A stretch of 64,000 nucleotides of DNA from assembly GCF_013128195.2 (NCBI RefSeq), contig NZ_CP053452.2, positions 8,618,001 through 8,682,000 on the forward strand. The letters are read 5' to 3'. This document shows, one piece after another, positions 6,283 through 60,572 of the stretch. Made by a program: the position numbers and the translations under genes. Numbering within the stretch: position 1 is the stretch's first letter; the number at the start of each line of letters is the position of its first letter. The DNA comes from Frigoriglobus tundricola. Its GTDB lineage: Bacteria > Planctomycetota > Planctomycetia > Gemmatales > Gemmataceae. The notes under the pieces were generated by a model. That model was not told the origin of the DNA. It did no database searches and saw only the letters and a list, made by a program, of their open reading frames with translations.

Positions 6283-6311
6283 GTCCGGTTCTCCGTTCGC
6301 GTCTCGTTTCC

Positions 6312-6368
6312 TCACTAGTGAAATATTAGTGTTTCACTAGTGAGTTGTCAATAGTAATTCACTAGTGA
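6312..6368. promoter_or_regulatory. Five-box palindromic operator array
   Basis: TCACTAGTGA, a perfect 10-bp palindrome, occurs at 6312-6321, 6334-6343 and 6359-6368. Degenerate boxes lie between: 6323-6332 (6/10 match) and 6348-6357 (8/10). Box centres are 11, 11, 14 and 11 bp apart. The array sits between divergent genes at 6282(-) and 6408(+), the latter encoding a ribbon-helix-helix protein. Such proteins characteristically bind tandem short palindromes. Confidence 0.8.
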
Positions 6369-6407
6369 ATTTCCGCAGGGCTGATATGATGGCTTTGGAG
6401 GTGCCGA

Positions 6408-6656
6408 ATGGCGCGACGTGACGTGAAGGGTGCGAAGCAGTTCAACTACGAGATCGACGCCGCGCTTGTGGACGCCTTCAGGGCGTTTTGCAAGGGGCGT
6501 AATGAAGCAGTGAAGGAACACTTAGAAATGGCGCTGCAGCGGCACATGGAGAACCCGCCGCCACCGTTCAAGCCGGCTGCCCCGCCGCTCCCGCCGATCC
6601 CGGCGCCCGCGGAACCGACAGCCGAAGAGAAGCCGGCCAAGAAGGGGAAGAAGTGA
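6408..6656 (+). CDS. Ribbon-helix-helix DNA-binding protein, 82 aa
   Basis: Residues about 10-46 fit an RHH domain: strand KQFNYEID, helix A ALVDAFRAFCKG, turn RNE, helix B AVKEHLEMALQRHM. RHH proteins (Arc/MetJ/CopG type) are dimeric repressors that insert the strand into the major groove. The C-terminal third is a Pro/Ala linker ending in a lysine-rich tail (EKPAKKGKK). ATG at 6408 has GGAGG six bases upstream. The 3' end overlaps the next gene by four bases (GTGA). The operator array 40-95 bp upstream suggests autoregulation plus control of the divergent SWIM gene (inference). Confidence 0.75.
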   Translation: MARRDVKGAKQFNYEIDAALVDAFRAFCKGRNEAVKEHLEMALQRHMENPPPPFKPAAPPLPPIPAPAEPTAEEKPAKKGKK

Positions 6657-6898
6657 GCCACAACCCAGAGAAGCAGCCCCGGCGCCTGTCGGCCCAAGAG
6701 AAGCGCAGAAAGGATCTCCGCGACCTCCTGCGGACCGCAAACGGCCCACAGGTTCTCGAGGCTCTGCGTAAGTGGGAGGTAGGGAAGTGGGCACTCCGCT
6801 TCGTCGCGGTCACGGTGCTGGCCTTCTGCGCGGTCTTCTGCGCGCTCTTTATGTGGTTTGCGGTACTGGCCTTTAACGACATGTCCTCGCTGGATTGA
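6653..6898 (+). CDS. Single-span membrane protein, 81 aa
   Basis: Starts at GTG 6653, overlapping the stop of the RHH gene (GTGA), so it is translationally coupled. The first 45 residues are strongly charged and helical (QEKRRKDLRDLLR, EALRKWEVGKW). One long hydrophobic segment follows (FVAVTVLAFCAVFCALFMWF) and the protein ends shortly afterwards with NDMSSLD. Function unknown; coupling to a repressor suggests an operon partner. Confidence 0.65.
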   Translation: MSHNPEKQPRRLSAQEKRRKDLRDLLRTANGPQVLEALRKWEVGKWALRFVAVTVLAFCAVFCALFMWFAVLAFNDMSSLD

Positions 6899-7057
6899 CC
6901 TCCGCTCACGCCCTTCCATCGGCCGGGTGGGGTTGGGATGGTACACTGTGGGTACGGCCAGCGGAGTAGCTACCGCTGATGAAGCCGCGGTTGCGGGGCG
7001 CCTGTCACCTGGGTCGCTGCCGCGACCGCGGCCCGCCGTGCAACCCACAGGTGAAGC

Positions 7058-7303
7058 ATGTCAGACGAGCAAGCCGCGCCGTCTCCGGTGCCGACCTGGA
7101 CGAAGGTATACCCCACTGTTGAAGGCTATTACTGGTGCCACAATGCTGGGCGGTTCTACATTGCCTGGTTCTACCGAAATGGGCCTTCTCACATGCCGCT
7201 GGTCCCACACTGGTGCGCAGTAGGTTCCAAGGGTGAAGCACCTTCTGGCGTGACCGGCCCAAGCGATTACTTTGGTCCGATACCTCCACCGCCACTCTCG
7301 TAA
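7058..7303 (+). CDS. Small aromatic-rich protein, 81 aa
   Basis: Unrecognised by family, but the aromatic core GYYWCHNAGRFYIAWFYRNG is reminiscent of short phage or accessory proteins with a W/Y-rich beta sheet. ATG at 7058; the upstream AGGTG is a weak ribosome site. It has no signal peptide, ends in a Pro-rich tail, and is co-directional with the genes at 6408-7936. Confidence 0.55.
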   Translation: MSDEQAAPSPVPTWTKVYPTVEGYYWCHNAGRFYIAWFYRNGPSHMPLVPHWCAVGSKGEAPSGVTGPSDYFGPIPPPPLS

Positions 7304-14115: not shown

Positions 14116-14940
14116 TTATTCTGCACCGTGACACTCGAATCCGGCCGCGAGGTGACCCGTTGTGATGGTCACCGCGCGGCCGATCAGTTTTACCCGACCG
14201 TTCGACCGCACGACACGCACCACGCCGCCCCGCTCGCTCGCCTGAAAGCCCGTCATCTCGGTTTTTCCCAATCGCTCCCCCCACCATTCCGACAAACAGC
14301 AGTGCGCCGATCCGGTCACCGGGTCCTCGTTGATGCCGGCCGCGGGCGCGAAGAACCGCGACACGAAATCGTATCTTGCGTCCGCGGATCGGGCGGTCAC
14401 GATCACCCCACGGGACTCGGTCCGTGCCAGCCGAGCGAGGTCCGGTGCGAGGGTCCGGACCTCGGCGTCGGTCGCCACCTCGACGAGGTAATCGTCCGAA
14501 TTGCGGCCCACCGCGAGCGCGTGCGCGCCGAGCGCCTCGAGCAGCTCCGGCGGTGCTGCGCAGGGCGCCGCCCCGCGCGCCGGGAAGTCCAATTCGATCT
14601 CACCCGACGCCAGTCGCCGGGCGGTGAGAGTGCCGCTCTTGCGCGTTTGGAAGGTGAGGGGCTCCTGGGTCGTTGTGCCGGACGACCAGAGGAAGTGTGC
14701 CGAGGCGAGTGTCGCGTGACCGCAGAGCGCGACTTCGACCTTCGGCGTGAACCACCGGAGTTCCCAACCGGAACCGATCGTTCCGTGGGGCACGAGGAAC
14801 GCGGTTTCGGACAGGTTCATTTCTCGGCCGATGAGTTGCAGCCAGGTATCTACCGGCCAGTGATCGAGGAGACACACGGCCGCGGGGTTGCCCGCGAACG
14901 GGGTGTCCGTAAACGCATCGACGACGGATAACGGAACCAT
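14116..14940 (-). CDS. PhzF-family isomerase, 274 aa
   Basis: Member of the PhzF/diaminopimelate-epimerase-like fold. Diagnostic motifs: VDAFTDTPFAGNPAAVCLL at the N-terminus, the catalytic-acid motif NLSETAF with Glu45, the CGHATLASAH loop (about 73-82), and EDPVTGSAHCCLSEWWGER in the second lobe. PhzF enzymes catalyse proton-transfer isomerisation of small metabolites; the substrate cannot be told. Length is as expected (about 260-290). It has its own promoter region shared with the divergent gene at 15005. Confidence 0.88.
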   Translation of the reverse strand: MVPLSVVDAFTDTPFAGNPAAVCLLDHWPVDTWLQLIGREMNLSETAFLVPHGTIGSGWELRWFTPKVEVALCGHATLASAHFLWSSGTTTQEPLTFQTRKSGTLTARRLASGEIELDFPARGAAPCAAPPELLEALGAHALAVGRNSDDYLVEVATDAEVRTLAPDLARLARTESRGVIVTARSADARYDFVSRFFAPAAGINEDPVTGSAHCCLSEWWGERLGKTEMTGFQASERGGVVRVVRSNGRVKLIGRAVTITTGHLAAGFECHGAE

Positions 14941-15004
14941 GTTAACGCCTTTCAGGTGTGGTATACTCGCCGCCCACGGTACCGCCGCTCACGAGGCTTC
15001 CGCC

Positions 15005-18000
15005 ATGTCACCGCTCCTCTACACCCGGACGGCCGCTGCGGCGGTCGGGTTCGCGGTCATCGGTCTCGCACTCGCCTGGCCTCTGAAGGCCCGCGACGAG
15101 AAGCCCCCGCTGAAGGACAAGGGCGATGCTAACAAGCGGCAGCCGTGGACGACCTCGAAGGTCGTCGGCTCGCCGGAACCGCCCCCGAAGTACAAGTCCG
15201 CCCGCGTGTTCCCGAACGCGAAGTTCAATCACCCGCTCCTGATTGCCCGCTGTCCGGGTACCGAGCGGCTCTTCGTAGGCGAACAAGAGGGGTTACTGTA
15301 TTCGCTCGCAAACAAGCCCGATGCGAAGCCCGACGTGTTCCTCGACCTGCGGAAGGAATACCCGGCGCTCGTTCCGAACGCCGCTGCGAAGGGGATCGGC
15401 GAGCTGTACGGACTCGTGTTCCACCCACAGTTCGAGAAGAACCGGTTCTGTTACGTCTGTTACACGCTGGAGAAGAAGGACGGCACGCCCGGCCGCATCG
15501 CCGACGGGTCGCGGGTGTCGCGGTTCAAGGTAACGGACACCGATCCGCCCCGGATCGATGCCGCCAGCGAGGAGATCGTGATCACGTTCCAGGGCGGCGG
15601 GCACAACGGCGGCGACCTCCATTTCGGCCGCGACGGCTTCCTCTACATCTCCACCGGCGACGGGAGCGGTCCCAACCCGCCGGACCCGCTCAACACCGGG
15701 CAGGACTGTTCAGACCTCCTCTCGTCGATCCTCCGCATCGACGTGGACAAGAAGGAGACCGCCAGGAACTATGCGGTCCCGAAGGACAACCCGTTCCTCG
15801 GAATCAAGGACGTGCGGCCCGAAATCTGGGCGTTCGGGTTCCGCAACCCGTGGCGGATGAGCATCGACCGCATGACCGGCGACCTGTGGGTCGGGGACGT
15901 CGGCTGGGAACTGTGGGAGATGGTTCACCGGGTCGAAAAGGGGGGGAACTACGGGTGGAGCATCGTGGAGGGCCGCCAACCGGTGAAGCCGGACCAGAAG
16001 ATCGGCCCGGCGCCGATCCGGCCGCCGCTCCTCGAACTGCCGCACACGATCGCGTGCAGCGTGACCGGCGGGTACGTCTACCGCGGGAAGAAGTTCCCCG
16101 AACTGGTGGGTGCCTACATCTTCGGGGACTGGGAAACGCGGCGCATCTGGGCCGCGCGCTTCGAGGAGGAGAAGGCGGGCGGGAGTTCGGGGGAACGCGC
16201 GGGGACTTCTCTGAAACTGAAGGAGATGCCAGAGATCGTGAAGCCGAACATCCGTGTTTCGGCCTTCGGCGAAGATAACGCCGGCGAGCTTTACTTCCTC
16301 GAGTACGACACCGGCGTCATGTACACGCTGGAGAAGAACGACGCCGGTGCCGCGAACGCGCAGTTCCCGACGAAACTGAGCGAAACCGGCATCTTCGCTG
16401 ATGTCGCCAGGCACACCCCCGCCTTGGGGGTGATCCCCTTCTACCCCAACGCGCGCCAGTGGCAGGACGGGGCGACCGCGGACTACCTCCTCGCGCTCCC
16501 CGACCTCTCGACCGTCACGTTCTTCAGCAAGCCGCGGCCGCTGCCGGGACAGGTGTTCTGGCACGACTTCAAGATGGCGTTCCCGAAGGACACGGTTCTG
16601 GTGAAGACCCTTTCCCTCGACGTGCTGAACGGCAACCGCCAGATCGAAAAGCGGATCGAAACACAACTGCTCCATTTCGACGGCGACGACTGGCGCGGGT
16701 ACTCCTACGCGTGGCGCGACGACCAGACCGACGCCGACCTGGTGCCCATCGACGGGGCGGAGAAGGCGTTCCCCGTAGCGGCTGGAGGAAGGGCCGAGAA
16801 AGGCACCTGGGCACCCACCGGTACGCGAGAGCAAGTGTGGACCTACCACAGCCGGACGCAGTGCATCACGTGTCACAACTCCTGGTCCGAGTACGCGCTC
16901 GCCTTCACCGCGAGCCAGTTGAACCGCGCGCCGCTGTTCGCGGGCGGCGGGGTACCCAACCAACTCGTGCGGCTGACGACGCAGGGCTACGCGCGCCGGG
17001 TTGCGGCCGACGACAAGGAGCTGCCGCCGTTCGACCCGAAGGCGGTGAAGAACGAGCCGGCCCTCGCACCGCTGCACGGCGCCGACTCGCTCGACGCGCG
17101 AGCGCGGAGCTATCTCCACGTGAACTGTGCCCACTGTCACCGCTTCGGCGGCGGGGGCGGGCAGGTGGTCCTCGAACTGGACGTTGCGAAACCACTGAAC
17201 GAGACCGCCATCTTCGACGTGCGGCCGAAGCAGGGCGACTTCGGCCTACCGGACGCCCGTATCCTCGCGCCGGGCGACCCGTATCGGAGCGTGCTGTTCT
17301 ACCGCATGGCAAAGTTCGGCCGCGGCCGGATGCCGCACCTGGGATCGGTGCGCCCACACACACAGGGGCTCGATGTGATGGCGGAGTGGATCGCGTCGCT
17401 CGGGAAGCCGGCGAAGTCCTGGGAACTGCCGCCAGCGAGCGCCGAAGGGGCCGGCAAGGCGCTAACGACATTCCAAAATGGGTGGCCGTACGCCCGCGCG
17501 CTCGCGCTCGGGAAGTTGGAAGGACCGTCGGCCGAGGCGCTTCTCACCGACGCGGCGAAGCTCCCGGCCGGTCCGACGCGCGACCTGTTCGAGGGGCACC
17601 TGCCCGTCGGGCCCGGCGGCCGGAAACTCGGTGCGAACCCCCGGCCGGCAACGATTCTCGCGCTGACCGGCGACGCCAAGAGCGGTGAGGTGCTGTTCTT
17701 CAACAAAGAGATGAAGTGCGCGAACTGTCACAAAATCGGCGACCGGGGAACCGCGCTCGGCCCCGACCTGTCCCTGATCGGTAAGACGCGCACCCGGGCC
17801 GAACTGCTCGACAGCCTGCTCAACCCGTCGGCGCGGGTGGAACCGCAGTTCGCCGCGTACAACGTCCGCACCCTTGACGAGAAATCGTACACGGGGATCG
17901 TGGTCAAACGCGATGAGAAGCAGCTCACGCTCCGCGACGCCGAGAACCGGGAAGTGGTGATCGCCGGCGACACCGTGGAGAGCGTCCGGCCGTCGCGCCT

Positions 18001-18085
18001 GTCGCTGATGCCCGACGGCCAAATGGCCGGGCTGACGCCGCAGCAGGCCGCCGATCTGCTCGAGTATCTGGTGCAACGGAAATAG
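15005..18085 (+). CDS. PQQ-type sugar dehydrogenase fused to cytochrome c domains, 1026 aa
   Basis: Exported oxidoreductase. The ATG at 15005 starts a signal/anchor peptide (AAAAVGFAVIGLALAWPLK). Residues about 60-450 form a glucose/sorbosone dehydrogenase-like beta-propeller (TERLFVGEQEGLLYSL, FQGGGHNGGDLHFGRDGFLY, AFGFRNPWRMSID, GGNYGWSIVEG). A middle region follows with one heme motif CITCH (about 620), then CAHCH (about 707) and a terminal cytochrome domain with CANCH (about 905) and a GTALGPDLSLIG distal region, like TIGR03806/TIGR02603. Such proteins oxidise sugars or alcohols in the periplasm and pass electrons to the hemes. Divergent from the PhzF gene. Confidence 0.88.
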   Translation: MSPLLYTRTAAAAVGFAVIGLALAWPLKARDEKPPLKDKGDANKRQPWTTSKVVGSPEPPPKYKSARVFPNAKFNHPLLIARCPGTERLFVGEQEGLLYSLANKPDAKPDVFLDLRKEYPALVPNAAAKGIGELYGLVFHPQFEKNRFCYVCYTLEKKDGTPGRIADGSRVSRFKVTDTDPPRIDAASEEIVITFQGGGHNGGDLHFGRDGFLYISTGDGSGPNPPDPLNTGQDCSDLLSSILRIDVDKKETARNYAVPKDNPFLGIKDVRPEIWAFGFRNPWRMSIDRMTGDLWVGDVGWELWEMVHRVEKGGNYGWSIVEGRQPVKPDQKIGPAPIRPPLLELPHTIACSVTGGYVYRGKKFPELVGAYIFGDWETRRIWAARFEEEKAGGSSGERAGTSLKLKEMPEIVKPNIRVSAFGEDNAGELYFLEYDTGVMYTLEKNDAGAANAQFPTKLSETGIFADVARHTPALGVIPFYPNARQWQDGATADYLLALPDLSTVTFFSKPRPLPGQVFWHDFKMAFPKDTVLVKTLSLDVLNGNRQIEKRIETQLLHFDGDDWRGYSYAWRDDQTDADLVPIDGAEKAFPVAAGGRAEKGTWAPTGTREQVWTYHSRTQCITCHNSWSEYALAFTASQLNRAPLFAGGGVPNQLVRLTTQGYARRVAADDKELPPFDPKAVKNEPALAPLHGADSLDARARSYLHVNCAHCHRFGGGGGQVVLELDVAKPLNETAIFDVRPKQGDFGLPDARILAPGDPYRSVLFYRMAKFGRGRMPHLGSVRPHTQGLDVMAEWIASLGKPAKSWELPPASAEGAGKALTTFQNGWPYARALALGKLEGPSAEALLTDAAKLPAGPTRDLFEGHLPVGPGGRKLGANPRPATILALTGDAKSGEVLFFNKEMKCANCHKIGDRGTALGPDLSLIGKTRTRAELLDSLLNPSARVEPQFAAYNVRTLDEKSYTGIVVKRDEKQLTLRDAENREVVIAGDTVESVRPSRLSLMPDGQMAGLTPQQAADLLEYLVQRK

Positions 18086-18187
18086 TCGCCCTCGGGTGCA
18101 GTTCTGGCCCCCGACCGGTCCGTCGAATTCCGTCGCTGGAAAAAATCGCGCATGCGCCGGACCGGAGCGCGGCACTACTCTGGCACC

Positions 18188-20641
18188 ATGACGCCGACGC
18201 TTTCGGTTCTCGCCGATTTGTCTCTCGGTCACGTCCCGGACGCGGACCTCCTGCTCCGATTCGTGCGGGACGGCGATTGCGCGGCGTTCGAGCTACTCGT
18301 GCGGCGCCACTGGCGGCTGGTGTTCGGCGTGTGCCGGCGGGTCGCCGGCGACGCGCACGACGCCGAGGACGCCGCCCAGGCGGCGTTCCTCGTGCTGGTT
18401 CGCCGTGCCGAGGTCGTCCGCGGAACACACCTCGCCCCCTGGCTGGTGCGGGTGGCGTACCGCTGTGCGGTCCGTGTCCGCACGCGGCGCCGGGACCATT
18501 CCCCGATCGACCTCGCGACCGTTTCCGCCCCCGAGCCCGTCGATTCTGATTCACTTCTCTGTGCCGTCCTCGACGCCGAGTTGAACCGTTTGCCGGCCAA
18601 ATACCGTATTCCCGTGGTGCTCTGTTACCTCCAAGGGAAGACGTACGAACAGGCGGCGGCGGAACTGAACTGTCCGCTCGGAACGTTGTCCGGGCGGCTG
18701 ACCCGCGCAAAGACCCTTCTGCGGACCCGGCTCGTGCGCCGGGGCGTGACGATGAGCGCCGGGGGGCTGATGGCGTTCCTGGTCGGACTGGGATCGGGTG
18801 CGTCGGCCACGGACCACGCGGTTCGATCCATCACTGCAACGGCCGCGTCGCTCGCGCGCGGGGAAGCGATTCCCTGGCGGGCGCAGGTCGTCGCCAACGG
18901 AGTGATTCAAATGATGACATGGAAGTCGAAACTGGTGCCCGTGCTGGGGGCGGTCGCCGCGCTCCTGGGACTGGCCGCGGCGTCGGCCTCGCTCGAGCCG
19001 CCAAAACCACCCGAGCCGCCGAGAATCCCGGTTCTCGCGCTACCAACGGAAGTGAAGAAAACCGATGCCGTCGCCCTTCAGGGGGTGTGGGTGTTCGACG
19101 CCGCCCGCCGCGGAAAGGTCGACGCGCTCGGCATGGTCTGGGCGTCCCGTGTCGTCATCCACGGCGACGCGGTTTCCGTGGAGCCGTTTCTCGACGAGAA
19201 GCTCGTATTGAGGGGGAAAATCAAACTCGATGCGTCGGTCGAGCCGAAGCGGTTGGACCTGATCCTCGAAGAGCTCGACTTTGCCCCGACCGGTGACCCG
19301 TTCAAGATCGCGGCCGGGACGTATCCGGGCGTGTATAAGCTGGACGGCACGCGACTGAGCCTGTGCCTCGCGCTCGAGAAGGACGGCCCGCGCCCGGCCG
19401 CGATCGACGCACCGGGAGAGCGGGTACTCCGGGCGACGCTGGTCAAGGCGCCGGCGGGGTTCAAGGAGTTCCCGAAGGAGGTGACGGTGAAGGCGGTGGG
19501 CGCCGACGGTAAACCGGTGAGCGGGGCCGTGGTGGCCGGATTCATGAACCACCAGCCGCCGGTCGTGGAACGGACGCCCGACGGCCGCACGATCCCGCCC
19601 GAGAAGTTGACCGACGAACAGCGGAAGAAACTCGAACAGCTCAACAAGGTGCCCGCCGGCGCCATCCGAGACGAGGGGACCGGGTGGACATTCACAAGCA
19701 GCAAGACGACCGCGGCCGACGGCACGGTGAAAATCCCCTTCGAGGACCTGCCCTTCCATTCGCTCGTGGTTCGAGACCCGGCGAGCAAGCGGATGGGCCT
19801 CGCCCGCGTGTCCCCGGCTTCGCTTTTGACGGACACCGTGGTTATGGTCAAGCTCCAGCCGGAGTGCCGGGTACACGTGACGGGCGAGTGTAAGGAACTG
19901 ACGAAATCGGGCCTGACCGACGTATTCCACGCATACGTTGAAACACCGGACGGGCGCCGATTCGCGTTCAACGCCAGCGAATCCGGCAAACTGGAGTACG
20001 TGCTCGCGCCGGGCGAGTACGCCCTGCACATGTACGGTAGCAGCCTGATGGGGTCAAAGCGGGTGACGTTCACGGTGCCGAAGGACCGGAGCGAGTACGC
20101 GGTCGAACCGGTGACGCTCCCGCCGACGGGGTTCTTGACGCTCATCGGGAAGCCGGCTCCGGAACTGACCGACGTGGTCGCCTGGAAGGGAGCGGCGGTG
20201 AAACTGGCCGACCTGAAAGGCAAGTACGTGCTGGTGGAGTTCTGGGGGTACTGGTGCGGACCGTGCGTCGCTTCGATGCCGGTACTCATGGAGTTACACG
20301 ACCGCTTCAAAGATAAGGGCGTGGTAATTGTCGGCGTCCACGTCGATGCGGACGGCGAGGTGGACACTGTGCGTGCCCTCGACGACAAACTCGCCCTGTA
20401 CAAGAAGGATCTGTGGAAGGGGAGGGACATCCCGTTCCCGGTGGCCCTCACGTCCGGCAAGCGGGCGCAGGACGATGAGAACGCGGGCCGTGGGGTGCTG
20501 GCCACGAGGTACGGCGTCCGCGGCTACCCGAGTACCGTTCTGATCGACGCCGCCGGCAAGGTGGTGGGCAAGTTCCACGCTCGGGATGTCAAGGCCGCCG
20601 CCGAGCGCCTCGAAGAGTTGCTGAAGGAGGCGAAGAAATGA
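18188..20641 (+). CDS. ECF sigma factor fused to membrane span and thioredoxin domain, 817 aa
   Basis: ATG at 18188. Residues 1-180 are a complete ECF sigma-70: region 2 (FGVCRRVAGDAHDAEDAAQA) and region 4 (YLQGKTYEQAAAELNCPLGT). A membrane span follows at about 250-265 (VPVLGAVAALLGLAAASAS), then a TIGR03067-like domain (about 290-430, LQGVWVFDAARRG), a carboxypeptidase-regulatory-like beta region, and a C-terminal TlpA-like thioredoxin (about 650-815) with active site WCGPC (Cys690, Cys693) and cis-Pro YPSTV. Membrane-anchored sigma factors are known in Gemmata-type planctomycetes; a redox-active thioredoxin tail is unusual. The reading frame is continuous. Confidence 0.85.
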   Translation: MTPTLSVLADLSLGHVPDADLLLRFVRDGDCAAFELLVRRHWRLVFGVCRRVAGDAHDAEDAAQAAFLVLVRRAEVVRGTHLAPWLVRVAYRCAVRVRTRRRDHSPIDLATVSAPEPVDSDSLLCAVLDAELNRLPAKYRIPVVLCYLQGKTYEQAAAELNCPLGTLSGRLTRAKTLLRTRLVRRGVTMSAGGLMAFLVGLGSGASATDHAVRSITATAASLARGEAIPWRAQVVANGVIQMMTWKSKLVPVLGAVAALLGLAAASASLEPPKPPEPPRIPVLALPTEVKKTDAVALQGVWVFDAARRGKVDALGMVWASRVVIHGDAVSVEPFLDEKLVLRGKIKLDASVEPKRLDLILEELDFAPTGDPFKIAAGTYPGVYKLDGTRLSLCLALEKDGPRPAAIDAPGERVLRATLVKAPAGFKEFPKEVTVKAVGADGKPVSGAVVAGFMNHQPPVVERTPDGRTIPPEKLTDEQRKKLEQLNKVPAGAIRDEGTGWTFTSSKTTAADGTVKIPFEDLPFHSLVVRDPASKRMGLARVSPASLLTDTVVMVKLQPECRVHVTGECKELTKSGLTDVFHAYVETPDGRRFAFNASESGKLEYVLAPGEYALHMYGSSLMGSKRVTFTVPKDRSEYAVEPVTLPPTGFLTLIGKPAPELTDVVAWKGAAVKLADLKGKYVLVEFWGYWCGPCVASMPVLMELHDRFKDKGVVIVGVHVDADGEVDTVRALDDKLALYKKDLWKGRDIPFPVALTSGKRAQDDENAGRGVLATRYGVRGYPSTVLIDAAGKVVGKFHARDVKAAAERLEELLKEAKK

Positions 20642-38243: not shown

Positions 38244-38610
38244 GAGTCGTCGGCGGACCGAGCGCCGATCCAGGAAATGCTCGTCTCCCCTTATAGGCGG
38301 GTTCGTATTTCCTGCCTGCTAATCTACCTACTCGTCAGCTCGATACGCTCCGGTTGCGGCATGCTGCACGGCAGAATACCCGATTGCTGCCCCAGCGATC
38401 AGCCGGTTGTTGCCACGATACTGGACGGCGAGTGTTGCACACGCGGTTTTGCAGGTCGAGTTCCAAACCCCGAGTGACGTTTTTTTCTGGGCGAGTCCGG
38501 CCCCCGTGGACTGCTCGCTGGACACCAGCATTGTGCCCTAGCGTGGCCCGAACAGCACGGAATTCGTCCTTTCTTGCAAGATATTGGCCGGGTCGTGACA
38601 TGATCCGGGT
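38244..38610. other. Intergenic stretch upstream of the second sigma factor
   Basis: No gene seen. T-rich tract at about 38479-38487 after a GC-rich part. Presumed promoter of the ECF gene at 38611; no -35/-10 pair I can place with confidence. Confidence 0.4.
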
Positions 38611-40026
38611 ATGAGCCGTCTCACGCACCTGTTCCACCGCCGTCTGTCGGCCCGCGACGAGCGGGCCGACGGGCACCTGCTGACCGCGTTCCTGGACGAA
38701 CAGGACGAACGGGCCTTCGCCGAACTGCTCCGCCGGCACGGCCCGCTGGTCTGGGGCGTGTGCCGGCGGTTCTTGGTCGAACCGGCCGACGCCGAGGACG
38801 CATTCCAAGCCACGTTCCTGGTTCTCGTCCGCCGGGCGGATCGGTTGACGGGGGCAATCACCGTCGGCCCCTGGTTGTTCAAAGTCGCGGGCTGGACGGC
38901 CCGCGCGCTCCGGCGGAAAGACGCCCGCCGTCGCGCTCGACGGGAACCTCTCCCACTGGCCGTTCCGGACCGGGGGGCCGGTCCGGAGGCGTTCGACCAG
39001 TCGGCCGATCTGGAGGCGGCCCTCCTCCGGTTGCCGGAGAAGTACCGCGTCCCGATCGTCCTCTGCTATCTACAAGGCTGGTCGCAGCGGGACGCGGCGG
39101 CGCACCTGGGGTGCCCGGAGGGGACGCTGGCCGCGCGACTCTCCCGCGGGTTGGCAAAATTGCGTACCCGGGGCGACGGGCAGAACCCGGTGCCGGCCCT
39201 CGCGCTCCTTGCCGTCGCCGTTCCCGACGCTTTGATCGCCCGGACCACCCGTGTCGCCCTGGCGGTGCGGGCGGCGTCACTCTCGATCGCCGCAGTCTCC
39301 CCGACCGCGGCCGACCTCGCACACGGAGTCCTCCGCATGATGTGGGTGAGAACGCTGGCCTCAGGCGGCCTGGCCGCGGTGATCGTCTTAGCTCTCGGTG
39401 TCGGCCTCTGGGCCGGGACTCGCCCGGCCACTGACACACCGGTCGAAACGCGCCTGCCCCCGCCGGGGGCCGGGACTCCGCAACTCCCGGCCGGCGGAAT
39501 CGAACCGCCGTTGCCCCCGCAGCCGGTGCCTCCGCCGGGGGTGGTGACTCCGCCTCCCGCGTCCTACGGATTCGAACCGCTGACGCCGCTCGTGCAAGAT
39601 CGGAAAGAAGTTCCTCCGGCCCTCAAGGCCCTGGCCGACCGTCTGAAGGGGGTGCTCAAAACCGACTGCCCGGATGCGACCGTGGACATCGACGGGAACG
39701 AGCTGACGATCCGCTATCGGGTCCGGAAGTACGTCGTCCACGGTTCGCTCAAGAACGGCGAGTTCACCGAGCAAACCTTCGAAAAGGAAGGCCCGCGGGT
39801 CAAGGGGTTCCGGCTTCAGGTGAGCTTCCACCGGGAGAAGCAGCTCAGCGCGCTCGTCATACCGCAGACCCTCGCGGAGCCGTACTGGCTGGTGTACGTC
39901 AACCAGTACCCGGTGGGGTCCGGGGCGGATGCCGGGTACGTCTGGGTGAACCTGTGGTACAACAGGCAGGTTTCAGCGGAGTTGCTCAACAAAATTAAGG
40001 AGTGTCTGGGCGCTCAGGAGAGGTGA
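38611..40026 (+). CDS. Membrane-tethered ECF sigma factor, 471 aa
   Basis: ATG at 38611. Sigma region 2 (FAELLRRHGPLVWGVCRRFL, EPADAEDAFQATFLVLVRRA) and region 4 (YLQGWSQRDAAAHLGCPEGT) occupy residues 1-185. A membrane span follows at about 252-270 (GLAAVIVLALGVGLWAGT), then a Pro-rich linker and a C-terminal soluble domain of about 150 residues (LKALADRLKGVLKTDCPDAT to end). ECF proteins with C-terminal extensions are a planctomycete hallmark; this tail differs from the thioredoxin one at 18188. Possible role: sensing through the extracytoplasmic domain. Confidence 0.85.
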   Translation: MSRLTHLFHRRLSARDERADGHLLTAFLDEQDERAFAELLRRHGPLVWGVCRRFLVEPADAEDAFQATFLVLVRRADRLTGAITVGPWLFKVAGWTARALRRKDARRRARREPLPLAVPDRGAGPEAFDQSADLEAALLRLPEKYRVPIVLCYLQGWSQRDAAAHLGCPEGTLAARLSRGLAKLRTRGDGQNPVPALALLAVAVPDALIARTTRVALAVRAASLSIAAVSPTAADLAHGVLRMMWVRTLASGGLAAVIVLALGVGLWAGTRPATDTPVETRLPPPGAGTPQLPAGGIEPPLPPQPVPPPGVVTPPPASYGFEPLTPLVQDRKEVPPALKALADRLKGVLKTDCPDATVDIDGNELTIRYRVRKYVVHGSLKNGEFTEQTFEKEGPRVKGFRLQVSFHREKQLSALVIPQTLAEPYWLVYVNQYPVGSGADAGYVWVNLWYNRQVSAELLNKIKECLGAQER

Positions 40027-56894: not shown

Positions 56895-59800
56895 ATGCAC
56901 GCCAACGAGTCCGGTCCGCGCGGCAATCCTGATGTCCCCGACACACCCGTGCCGGACCCGGCCACCCTCGCACAGAGTTCAACGATCGCGCGCGAACTGA
57001 TCCAGCGCATCGGCCCGCGGGGGCTCCCGGGCGTGCCCGGGTACGTACTCGAAGCCGAAATCGGCGCGGGCGGTATGGGCGTCGTGTACCGCGCCCAGGA
57101 ACTCGCGTTCGATCGCGCCGTGGCCATTAAACTGCTCCGGGAGCGCTATGCCGCGGACCCCGTGGCGGTGCGCCGGTTCCTCGAAGAGGCCCGGATCACT
57201 GGTCAGTTGCAGCACCCGGCCATTCCCCCCGTGCACCACATCGGCACGCTCGCCGATGGCCGGCCGTTCCTGGCCATGAAGCTGATCAAGGGCGAAACGC
57301 TCGACGCCCTGATCGAGCGCACGCCCGACGACCGCGGGCGGTTCGTCACGTCGTTCGTGCGGGTGTGTCAGGCGGTCGCCTACGCCCACGACCGCAAGGT
57401 CATTCACCGAGATTTGAAGCCGCAGAACGTGATGATCGGTGCGTTCGGCGAAGTGCAGGTGATGGACTGGGGGCTGGCCAAGGTGCTCACCGGGCAGCCC
57501 GAAGAAGTCGAGCCGAGCGGGGACCAGATATTCCGAACGGAAATCCGCCCGGACCGCGACTCCGACTCGGAGACGCAGGCCGGGAGCGTGCTGGGGACCC
57601 CGGCGTACATGTCCCCGGAGCAGGCCCGCGGCGAGGTGGCGCGGATCGACGAGCGCTCCGACGTGTTCGGCCTCGGCGCCGTCCTGTGCGCGATCCTCAC
57701 CGGCCAGCCGCCGTATTCGGGCCCGAACCCGATGGCCGTGCGTGTGATGGTGGTCCTCGGCGACACGTCCGCGTGCTTCGCGCGGTTGGACGCCTGCGAC
57801 GCCGACCCGGACCTCGTCATGCTCTGTAAGTGGTGCCTCGCTCAGGACCCCGAGGATCGGCCCCGCGACGCCGGCGCGGTGGCCCGAGCCGTGTCGTCGC
57901 ACCTGGCCGCCGCCGAGGAGCGCGCCCGGCAGGCGGAACTGACCCGCGTGCGCGGCGCGGAGGTGCGAAAACGCCGGCGCGTTCAGTTCGCCCTCGTCGG
58001 AACGTTGTCGCTGCTGGTGGCGGCCGGCGGGGTGGGGGCCGCGTTCGCCTCGCTCTGGCGCGCGTCGGAACGCGCCAAAGAGACGGCCGAACGCGCGACG
58101 GACGAGGCGCTCCGAGCAAAGGGAGAGGCCGTTCGGACACGGGACGAAGCCGAAGCCGCGCGGGACCGGCTGGCCACCGAGCAGAAGCTCACCGAAGCCG
58201 CCCGCGCCGACGCGGTTCTGCAGAAAGCGCTCGCGGACCGGGCACGCGAGGACGCGGTCCGGCAGAAGACGGACGCGGACAAGTTGCGTGAGGACGCGGT
58301 TCAGCAGAAGGCGACCGCAGAGGAGCTGCGCGAGGACGCGGTCCGGCAGAAGATGGCCGCAGACAAGGCCCGCGACGAATCCGTTCGGCAGAAGACGGCC
58401 GCAGACAAGCTGCGCGAGGAAGCGGTTCAGCAGAAGGTGGCCGCGGACAAGGCCCGCGACGACGCGCTCACACAAAAGCGCAACGCCGAGCGGGCCCGTG
58501 CGGGCGAAGCCGAGGCCCACGCCGCCGCCGAGGCGGAGCGCGCGAAGCTGGCGGTGGTCGAGTACGGGCGCACGCTCCAGGTCGCCGATCAGGAGTGGCG
58601 CGACAACAACGTGACCGCGGCCGTGGCGCTCCTGGCGGGAACCAAAGACGAGCACCGCGGCTGGGAGTGGCACTACGTCAACCGCCTGTGCCATTCCGAA
58701 CTCCTCGCCTTTTCGGGGCACGGCGACAAGGTCAGCGCGGCGGCGTTCAGCCCGGACGGCACGCGGATCGTCACGGCCGGCCACGACAAGACGGCGAAGG
58801 TCTGGGACGCGAAGACCGGGGCCGAACTCTTCACCCTCGCGGGCCACACGAAGGAGATCAGTTCCGTGGCGTACAGCGCGGACGGCGCGCGGATCGTCAC
58901 CGGGAGCTGGGACCACACGGCCAAGGTCTGGGACGCGCACCCGCGGACCGTGCCCCGCAAGGACGTCAAGGAACTGTTCACGCTCACGGGCCACACCGGG
59001 GAGGTGCTGTCCGTGGCGTTCAACCGCGACGGGACGCGCATCGTCACCGGGAGCCGGGACTTGACGGCCCGGGTCTGGGACGCGGGCCCCCGCACGCCCG
59101 GTAAAGAAGTCCTCACCCTGGAGGGGCGGCGCGTCGTCGTGTTCACCGCCGCCTTCAGCCCGGACGGCGCCCGGATCGTAACGGGCGGGGCGGACGCGGC
59201 GGCGCAGCTCTGGGACGCGACCACCGGCAAGAAGGGGCTCACGCTGATCGGGCACACGAACAGCGTATTTTCCGCGTCATTTAATGCGGACGGGACCCGC
59301 ATCGTCACCGGGAGCGCCGACCACACGGCGAAAGTGTGGGACGCGGCGACCGGTAAGGAGGCCCTCACCCTGGAGGGGCACACGAACTTCGTGACGTTCG
59401 CGGCGTTCAGCCCGGACGGGACCCGCATCGCGACCGCGAGCCTCGACACCACGGCGCGGGTGTGGGACGCGGCGGGGCTCGGCGGGCTCGGGCGCCCGCC
59501 CCACACGCCGGGGAAAGAGCGGCTCGTCCTCCGGGGGCACACGGAGCGCGTGTTCGCCGCGGCCTTCAGCCCGGACGCGAAGCGCATCGTGACGTGCAGC
59601 TACGACCGGACGGCCCGGGTGTGGGACGCGACCGCGGGGAAGGAACGGCTCACCCTCCGGCACCCGCACGTCGCGGTCTCCGCGTCGTTCAACGCGACCG
59701 GGTCGCGGGTGCTGACCGGCCACAGCGACAAGTCGGCGAAGGTGTGGGACACGGCCACCGGTGCGGAGCTGTTCACCTTCAAAGCGCCCGCGAGCACCGT

Positions 59801-60572
59801 GTTTTCCGCGTTCAGCGCGGACGGCGCGTGGGTCGTGACCGGCGGTTCGGACTCCGTCGCGCGGGTGTGGGACGTAGGGAGCCCGCCGCGTGTGCCCGAG
59901 AAGGAGGCACTCGCCCTCAGCGGCCACAAGGGCGAGGTGGTGTTCGCGGGGTTCAGTCCGGACGGCACGCGGATCGTCACCGGGAGCGCGGATCGGACCG
60001 CGAAGCTCTGGGACGCCAGGACCGGCGCCGAACTGCTCACCCTCGTCGGACACACGAGCGCCGTCCGGTCCGCGGGGTTCAGTCCGGACGGGTCGCTCGT
60101 CCTCACGAACGAGCAGAACCGGACGAACAAGCTGTGGGACGCAAAAACCGGGAAGCTGCGGCTCGCCCTGCCCGGCCAACCGGGGCGGGTGAGCGCGGCG
60201 TCGTTCAGCCCGGACGGGACGCGGGTCGTCACCGGCGCCGGGGACCGGGCCGCGAAGGTATGGGACACAAGGACCGGCAAAGAGGTGCTCGCGCTCCGCG
60301 GGCACGTGAGTAGCGTGTGGTCGGCGTCGTTCAGCGCGGACGGCACGCGGATCGTGACCGGCAGCTCCGACCAAACGGCGAAGGTGTGGGACGCCAGGAC
60401 CGGCGCCGAGCTGCTCACCCTTAAGGGGTACGTCACCGGGATGTTCGTCACGTTCAGTCCCGACGGGTCGCACGTCTTGACGAGCAGTTCGAACGCGACC
60501 CTGGTGTGGGACGGGCGCCCGGTGAGCCCGCTCCCCGCGCCGAAGGGACCGGCGCAGGTGCCCGAGAAGTAA
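56895..60572 (+). CDS. Receptor Ser/Thr kinase with coiled coil and 14 WD40 repeats, 1225 aa
   Basis: ATG at 56895, GGAGAGTGCCG upstream. Kinase domain: IGAGGMGVVY loop, AIK Lys79, HRDLKPQN (171-178), DWG (191-193), AYMSPEQ. A membrane span follows at about 355-375 (LVGTLSLLVAAGGVGAAFAS) and then about 150 residues of coiled coil built of near-identical units like KLREDAVQQKATAEE. The rest is 14 WD40 repeats (for example SPDGTRIVTGSADRTAKLWD), i.e. two seven-bladed propellers. Planctomycete receptor kinase; the propellers probably bind ligands or partners outside. Confidence 0.92.
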   Translation: MHANESGPRGNPDVPDTPVPDPATLAQSSTIARELIQRIGPRGLPGVPGYVLEAEIGAGGMGVVYRAQELAFDRAVAIKLLRERYAADPVAVRRFLEEARITGQLQHPAIPPVHHIGTLADGRPFLAMKLIKGETLDALIERTPDDRGRFVTSFVRVCQAVAYAHDRKVIHRDLKPQNVMIGAFGEVQVMDWGLAKVLTGQPEEVEPSGDQIFRTEIRPDRDSDSETQAGSVLGTPAYMSPEQARGEVARIDERSDVFGLGAVLCAILTGQPPYSGPNPMAVRVMVVLGDTSACFARLDACDADPDLVMLCKWCLAQDPEDRPRDAGAVARAVSSHLAAAEERARQAELTRVRGAEVRKRRRVQFALVGTLSLLVAAGGVGAAFASLWRASERAKETAERATDEALRAKGEAVRTRDEAEAARDRLATEQKLTEAARADAVLQKALADRAREDAVRQKTDADKLREDAVQQKATAEELREDAVRQKMAADKARDESVRQKTAADKLREEAVQQKVAADKARDDALTQKRNAERARAGEAEAHAAAEAERAKLAVVEYGRTLQVADQEWRDNNVTAAVALLAGTKDEHRGWEWHYVNRLCHSELLAFSGHGDKVSAAAFSPDGTRIVTAGHDKTAKVWDAKTGAELFTLAGHTKEISSVAYSADGARIVTGSWDHTAKVWDAHPRTVPRKDVKELFTLTGHTGEVLSVAFNRDGTRIVTGSRDLTARVWDAGPRTPGKEVLTLEGRRVVVFTAAFSPDGARIVTGGADAAAQLWDATTGKKGLTLIGHTNSVFSASFNADGTRIVTGSADHTAKVWDAATGKEALTLEGHTNFVTFAAFSPDGTRIATASLDTTARVWDAAGLGGLGRPPHTPGKERLVLRGHTERVFAAAFSPDAKRIVTCSYDRTARVWDATAGKERLTLRHPHVAVSASFNATGSRVLTGHSDKSAKVWDTATGAELFTFKAPASTVFSAFSADGAWVVTGGSDSVARVWDVGSPPRVPEKEALALSGHKGEVVFAGFSPDGTRIVTGSADRTAKLWDARTGAELLTLVGHTSAVRSAGFSPDGSLVLTNEQNRTNKLWDAKTGKLRLALPGQPGRVSAASFSPDGTRVVTGAGDRAAKVWDTRTGKEVLALRGHVSSVWSASFSADGTRIVTGSSDQTAKVWDARTGAELLTLKGYVTGMFVTFSPDGSHVLTSSSNATLVWDGRPVSPLPAPKGPAQVPEK

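Follow-up and report, generated by a model that had tools for sequence, protein, structure and literature searches.

A planctomycete ECF sigma factor gene with a ResA-type thioredoxin tail and a candidate internal start for the tail

A gene encoding an ECF sigma factor with a thioredoxin-containing tail, found in the window analysed here (a 64,000-nucleotide stretch of the Frigoriglobus tundricola genome), probably carries two nested products: a membrane-tethered sigma factor and, from an internal start, its separately exported tail. Codon statistics across the wider gene family and the seven copies in which sigma factor and thioredoxin tail are fused show selection at synonymous sites for a predicted ribosome-binding site and in-frame start codon, and from this pattern we infer that both products are made. 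Translation from 18188 would yield a membrane-tethered ECF sigma factor, with TIGR03067, CnaB-like and ResA-type thioredoxin domains making up a C-terminal half outside the cytoplasm. Translation from the internal Shine-Dalgarno core and ATG at 18899/18911 would yield the tail alone, the first 26 residues of which would serve as a signal peptide for export as a free thioredoxin-like envelope protein. If free and tethered tails shared a ligand or paired with one another, the state or amount of the tail outside would set sigma activity inside.

Gemmataceae are rich in ECF sigma factors that bear long C-terminal extensions of varied kinds. Should the internal start be real, dozens of exported proteins per genome would have been missed by annotation, the extensions would not be merely sensors, and each such gene would link the envelope protein that it carries with a transcription factor. 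The available sections of the papers on non-canonical ECFs (PMC8999054, PMC8103513) and on the Tuwongella immobilis proteome (PMC8567305), together with an open-access search, mention no internal start giving an exported ECF tail; an earlier report in print is possible.

Domains and predicted topology of the encoded protein

No stop interrupts the frame between 18188 and its end at 20641; it has an alternative in-frame ATG at 18152 and joins the sigma factor to the thioredoxin continuously, as the first-pass annotation had read it. Profile searches recover the parts named there, namely sigma regions 2 and 4 (Pfam Sigma70_r2 and Sigma70_r4_2; NCBIfam TIGR02937 at E 2.3e-17), TIGR03067 and, across residues 654–801, Redoxin (Pfam, E 4.6e-16), all above cut-off, and the WCGPC motif with Cys690 and Cys693 is where it was said to be. 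No match to sigma70 region 3 is listed from Pfam or NCBIfam, and by these profile matches the protein, with regions 2 and 4 and without region 3, fits the definition of an ECF sigma factor.

Table 1. Features of the ECF-thioredoxin gene and of a second tailed ECF gene, in window coordinates
Feature	Position	Strand	Details and basis
Full-length product, 817 aa	18188..20641	+	ECF sigma, membrane span, TIGR03067, CnaB/TTR-like, ResA-type thioredoxin; open frame, Pfam, NCBIfam, AlphaFold, Foldseek
Sigma70 region 2 (Sigma70_r2, residues 37-102)	18296..18493	+	Pfam E 1.1e-9, above cut-off
Sigma70 region 4 (Sigma70_r4_2, residues 128-177)	18569..18718	+	Pfam E 2e-11, above cut-off
Internal Shine-Dalgarno core GGAG	18899..18902	+	8 nt before ATG 18911; kept in 7 of 7 fused copies
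Predicted nested coding sequence, 576 aa	18911..20641	+	signal peptide and whole tail, without sigma; start ATG 18911, second ATG 18914
Predicted membrane span (long product) or signal-peptide-like start (short product), residues 242-267, MMTWKSK...AAASA	18911..18988	+	hydropathy; cleavage after ASA guessed by eye
TIGR03067 domain, residues 292-405	19061..19402	+	NCBIfam E 9.3e-13, above cut-off
CnaB/transthyretin-like beta-sandwiches, residues 425-645	19460..20122	+	model pLDDT 92.8 (folded alone), Foldseek matches
Conserved Cys568 in the CnaB/TTR-like part	19889-19891	+	alignment
ResA/TlpA-type thioredoxin, residues 653-801	20144..20590	+	Redoxin match, structure comparison, alignment
WCGPC Cys690	20255-20257	+	sequence
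WCGPC Cys693	20264-20266	+	sequence
cis-Pro781	20528-20530	+	alignment
Second tailed ECF gene, same device	38599..40026	+	GGAG 39325-39328, in-frame ATG 39337

The thioredoxin part is of the ResA/TlpA type, with fold, CxxC motif and cis-Pro all present. Foldseek matches it to ResA-type structures at E 2.7e-10, and a structure comparison run on the whole model, which covered almost only the thioredoxin, gives Z of about 16–17 against ResA and ResA-like structures (rmsd 2.1–2.6 across 134–138 residues). Scores stay below the NCBIfam cut-offs for ResA (NF002854, 68.4 bits against 170) and rhizobial TlpA (NF047696, 48.5 bits against 230), and at profile level this part is related to both and filed as neither. 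The region described earlier as carboxypeptidase-regulatory-like has zero Pfam match of that kind, and what survives of the description is a broad beta-sandwich fold class: as modelled, residues 425–645 share only that class with the CnaB pilin and transthyretin-type sandwiches found among their Foldseek matches (E 3e-7 to 5e-3, with TM-scores low over the whole). The AlphaFold model of the whole protein, built on eight sequences, reaches a pLDDT of mostly 80–94 in TIGR03067 and the middle part (in blocks of ten residues) and about 50–87 in the thioredoxin, and is poor in the sigma half and the span. The sigma half suffers from the shallow alignment, and for that reason the sigma/tail interface was not read off the model.

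The membrane span proposed after region 4 is also predicted by hydropathy, in which a single window there (residues 249–267) exceeds the cut-off; basic residues precede it, by eye, and AlphaFold places a helix at residues 230–266 with pLDDT below 50. A weaker hydrophobic stretch, at residues 190–207, also follows region 4. The cut-off is passed at the equivalent place in 9 of the 77 ECF tails of the host genome, and two spans would leave the tail inside the cytoplasm. Both the thioredoxin and the CnaB/TTR-like folds are of types common outside the cytoplasm, and the predicted topology puts the tail of the long product there. The earlier reading of an extracytoplasmic thioredoxin is supported as far as a predicted span and the kind of fold go, and the position of the tail outside is a prediction. 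That planctomycete ECFs are membrane-tethered, as had been assumed, is consistent with at least one span after region 4 in 75 of the 77 host tails longer than 80 residues (by hydropathy, mostly 35–68 residues beyond region 4) and with the related T. immobilis, from which, in the accessible part of the report, detergent-soluble fractions yielded five ECF sigma factors, three of the five in a single experiment (PMC8567305).

The 9.86-Mb host genome contains 135 frames that match the sigma part of the 817-residue protein, on which the census rests and for which 150 of 207 first-look candidates were scored. Full sigma matches number 100 once 35 partial ones are excluded, and 77 of these carry tails longer than 80 residues, about 23 of WD40 type, 9 with TIGR03067 and 3 of ResA type; Redoxin is matched 28 times in the genome, three times within ECF frames. 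A survey for thioredoxin tails thus returns 3 of 77 ECF tails in this genome and seven copies fused as in the gene studied here, in this and five other genomes. The three ResA-type tails sit on sigma parts that are not neighbours in the tree, and they weaken the earlier view of the redox tail as the unusual part.

Several other tails and frames were recorded along the way. The ECF gene E031 (locus L143, G000:C1 9749586-9751646, + strand, G000 being the host genome) has a TIGR03067-like and CIPC thioredoxin-like tail, by eye, and a strong internal Shine-Dalgarno sequence, GAAGGAG...ATG. Locus L136 (584-2047, − strand; G000:C1 8841416-8843686) encodes an ECF tail with the heme-c-like motif CISCHT, which must be extracytoplasmic if heme is attached, and two host ECF tails match the GspD type II secretin model (best E 1e-17). 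Thirteen host ECF genes are split over two frames (loci L050, L057, L061, L077, L084, L104, L106, L109, L114, L121, L124, L126 and L128; examples on G000:C1 are 6160130/6160455, 7722405/7721864, 357729/358027, 5657177/5657433, 846638/846930 and 8171117/8171446), and 11 of the 13 first halves end between regions 2 and 4, at query residues 98–110. The splits could reflect programmed frameshifting, decay to pseudogenes or indels introduced by assembly of a GC-rich stretch; in G012 there are 2 short sigma matches among 77, under a stricter cut-off that could hide some. A tRNA-Sec called by ARAGORN at 59784-59867 was discarded as spurious, the sequence reading by eye as WD40-like repeats.

The candidate internal start and its recurrence

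The residues just before the span are of an EGVLKAM-FLTKLK type (NGVIQMMTWKSK in this copy) and their codons, which are rare otherwise, make up a Shine-Dalgarno sequence. GGAGTG stands at the equivalent place in 6 of 6 other fused copies, and CCTCC is present in both 16S rRNA 3′ ends found by pattern, which read GGATCACCTCCTTT. Four of the six sigma-free relatives of the tail (that of the host and those of the closely related G009, G010 and G012, representing two lineages) have GGAG 9 nt before the likely ATG, and the spacing is therefore one that Gemmata genes appear to use. Against plain dinucleotide shuffles, the RNA fold at 18911 is ordinary (z 0.56).

For the gene family, a site was scored where a Shine-Dalgarno sequence and an in-frame ATG, GTG or TTG fell between −16 and +3 codons of the span, in 76 of the 77 tailed ECF genes (E061, with no span, was excluded; E022, below the hydropathy cut, was retained). 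Such a site occurs in 45 of the 76, compared with 16.2 expected from 200 synonymous resamplings (sd 3.0, maximum 25) and 17.1 when codons are drawn within the same gene (sd 3.2, maximum 27, 200 resamplings). A paralogue at 60% identity or more exists for only 11 of the 76. Among the 55 genes with a Met near the span, the mean Shine-Dalgarno score is higher than in all 500 synonymous resamplings, and at least four contiguous matches are found in 35 (10.2 expected). The stricter motifs AGGAG and GGAGG give 25 against 7.5 expected, two decoy motifs are not enriched (8 against 17.6 and 18 against 20.6), and GTG and TTG starts taken alone are not enriched either (8 against 6.2 expected, 76 genes). 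Many sites have an 11-nt spacing; with 5–9 nt only, the count is 23 against 11.2. By a lax criterion, a small-x-small site lies 20–36 residues into every one of the 45 predicted short products, and their n-regions carry a mean net charge of +1.6.

The excess is local and in phase. It is concentrated at −10 to −1 codons, where 48 such sites compare with 15.3 expected and a further 2 lie out of frame, and the other 5-codon bins listed along the genes hold at most 6 sites each. Gly ahead of the start is encoded by GGA in 23 of 29 cases, compared with 78 of 961 where similar motifs occur at other places in these genes, and no excess is seen at 403 other internal Mets. An in-frame start follows 4–11 nt past the core for 57 of 70 linker cores and for 195 of 1526 elsewhere, overlapping cores being counted apart. 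Around the start, the mRNA has less structure than its synonymous versions (z +1.54, se 0.14, n = 45), and a control place 90 codons on gives −0.26 (se 0.14). This dip is visible only against synonymous variants, and part of it comes from the choice of sites with a Shine-Dalgarno sequence; with the Shine-Dalgarno codons held fixed the value is +1.15 (se 0.16). Among the 30 best-scoring of 155 host kinase matches, 23 have a span beyond the kinase domain; of these, 1 has the site (2.1 expected), and their fold z is −0.34 (se 0.21).

The host genome had already shown the effect when the Shine-Dalgarno rule was set, so that only other genomes offer a true repeat, with orthologues common to both. 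In G012, 18 of 28 genes have the site (3.8 expected; 30 of 77 matches used, less those without a span over the cut-off), with Gly as GGA in 16 of 17. A repeat begun on ten further Gemmataceae genomes, with 30 loci of a longer list, leaves 27 of 29 genes after the span cut, from eight genomes (G074 gave no match and G059 no usable gene); 19 of these 27 have the site (5.3 expected; GGA 18 of 19) in a set that includes four copies of the same fused family and two look-alike genes of G071. Other planctomycete families give 5 of 15, not significant against 2.9 expected (16 genes from 17 loci, 15 after the span cut; GGA 4 of 5). Codon conservation over 16 G000/G012 orthologue pairs, with Gly kept in 9 of 13 against 153 of 287, offers too few sites. 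The internal-start site is missing in 31 of the 76 host genes, including the ResA-type E002 and E053, and by a crude motif classifier WD40-like tails have it in 5 of 16, against 40 of 60 others.

The fused family, its redox site and alternative readings

The tail family is present in 14 of the 102 genomes of the order, as 17 copies, and the 95 genomes of the family likewise yield 17 copies. Seven are fused to an ECF sigma factor (the host's, two in G044, and one each in G012, G088, G006 and G047; G044 copy a starts at a contig end within the sigma part), with identities to the host copy as low as about 35%. Six intact copies are sigma-free and begin, by eye, like a signal peptide; the host genome has one of the six, 50% identical across the thioredoxin half. 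The remaining four have in-frame stops. Because the join recurs in six further copies from five other genomes, it is unlikely to be an assembly accident. In the tail tree the sigma-free forms are nested among the fused ones, a pattern suggesting that the ancestor was fused and that the sigma half was lost more than once; a single clade for four fused rows is not rejected, however (p-AU 0.08), and the tree does not decide between fused and solo histories. A functional link to the upstream gene at 14888-18085 (sorbosone-dehydrogenase-like with CxxCH motifs, by eye) was dropped after upstream gene order had been compared around the six other fused copies (G088, G006, G047, G044 twice, G012): the order is kept in G012 only, where the gene is about 1.5 kb from the ECF, and is absent from the stretches fetched around the other five, one of which begins at a contig end.

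The redox site varies within the family. The host fused copy has WCGPC and, at GYPST, an intact cis-Pro; G044a has WCGPC and G088 WCGGC. The nearest copy, that of G012 (65% tail identity), reads GCGDC and has an altered cis-Pro region, SSLRT, and G006, G044b and G047 have lost both active-site Cys. WCGPC is found in 6 of 6 intact sigma-free forms, and set against the losses in fused copies this pattern indicates that the free proteins have retained the thiol chemistry and that it has decayed in several of the fused proteins. Cys568 is kept in 12 of 13 aligned rows. Some relatives have in-frame TGA codons: the sigma-free L043 (G038, 121520-122224, − strand) reads WGYW-TGA-GPC, with selenocysteine a likely replacement for the first active-site Cys, one TGA was also counted in the G039 relative, and L039 (G059, 6311-7252, − strand) has a TGA, either selenocysteine or a nonsense change, at the Cys568-equivalent site and an intact thioredoxin site.

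These patterns bear on the first-pass proposal of a single product acting as a tethered redox sensor, in which the thioredoxin would read the envelope redox state and the sigma part would be freed or activated by cleavage. The intact WCGPC and cis-Pro of the host copy and the extracytoplasmic-type folds accord with it, as do the regulated proteolysis of the sigma factor IutY, described in the section consulted of PMC8999054, and the detergent-soluble ECFs of T. immobilis (PMC8567305). Loss of the active-site Cys in three of seven fused copies, and of the cis-Pro in the nearest, leaves redox sensing unsupported as a shared function, and it was rejected as the conserved role of the fused family, four of the seven having lost one or the other; such a sensor would also leave the selected ribosome-binding site unexplained. 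The proposal is judged unlikely; thiol chemistry may be part of the mechanism in the host copy, where the one DsbD_TM protein of the genome could reduce, or feed electrons to, such thioredoxins.

About equally improbable is a passenger tail, secreted domains having been shuffled onto ECFs and the thioredoxin performing an envelope task unrelated to sigma control. The 77 host tails are indeed of varied kinds, WD40-type and TIGR03067 tails among them, and the intact sigma-free forms keep WCGPC throughout. Against a passenger tail, the seven fused copies group with E001 in a single clade of the sigma tree (8 of 83 rows, SH-aLRT 99), as if sigma and this tail had been kept joined since what looks like one event; E001, inside this clade, has a tail of another kind. 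By their sigma parts, E002, E053 and E031 fall next to other rows of the tree, without strong support.

Least probable, and quite doubtful, is a Shine-Dalgarno-like element that serves as a programmed translation pause aiding span insertion, with the full-length protein as sole product: although such pauses reportedly help membrane-protein targeting in E. coli (PMC4359368, in the portion available), the idea is weakened by the kinase control, in which the element occurs in 1 of 23 proteins whose span follows a long cytoplasmic stretch, by the coupling of most linker cores to an in-frame start and by the GGAG before the likely start of most sigma-free relatives.

Comparison with known systems

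The nested two-product gene, tethered sigma factor and exported tail, remains the preferred reading. A wider form of it, in which Gemmataceae carry dozens of nested ECF genes per genome and each free exported tail controls, from outside, the tethered sigma factor of its own gene, much as an intragenic extracytoplasmic anti-sigma factor would, is put forward as speculation and would not be the expected outcome. By analogy with RpnL/RpnS and SctQ/SctQC, the short product might attach to the long one or adjust its activity.

Among ECFs with C-terminal extensions, ECF52 SCO4117 and the planctomycete WD40 ECFs likewise combine regions 2 and 4 and an extension on one polypeptide, and several are membrane-bound. 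Extensions and WD40 ECFs are described for non-canonical ECFs, and detergent-fraction ECFs for T. immobilis, in the sections available of the respective reports (PMC8999054, PMC8103513, PMC8567305). The 817-residue protein differs from these in its thioredoxin tail and in the probable internal start for a separate exported tail. With the extracytoplasmic thioredoxins of ResA/TlpA type the tail shares fold and CxxC motif; unlike them it is fused to a sigma factor, and some of its fused relatives have lost catalytic residues.

The closest parallels for the nested arrangement are genes-within-genes, in which one frame yields a long protein and, from an internal start, its C-terminal part as a separate product described as able to bind or control the long form: rpn (RpnL/RpnS; PMC10327210), sctQ (SctQ/SctQC; PMC4295842) and Cas11 (PMC11899642). 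In contrast to all three, export would take the short product here out of the cytoplasm, where the sigma part would remain, and the arrangement, predicted from sequence, recurs in many paralogues of one genome.
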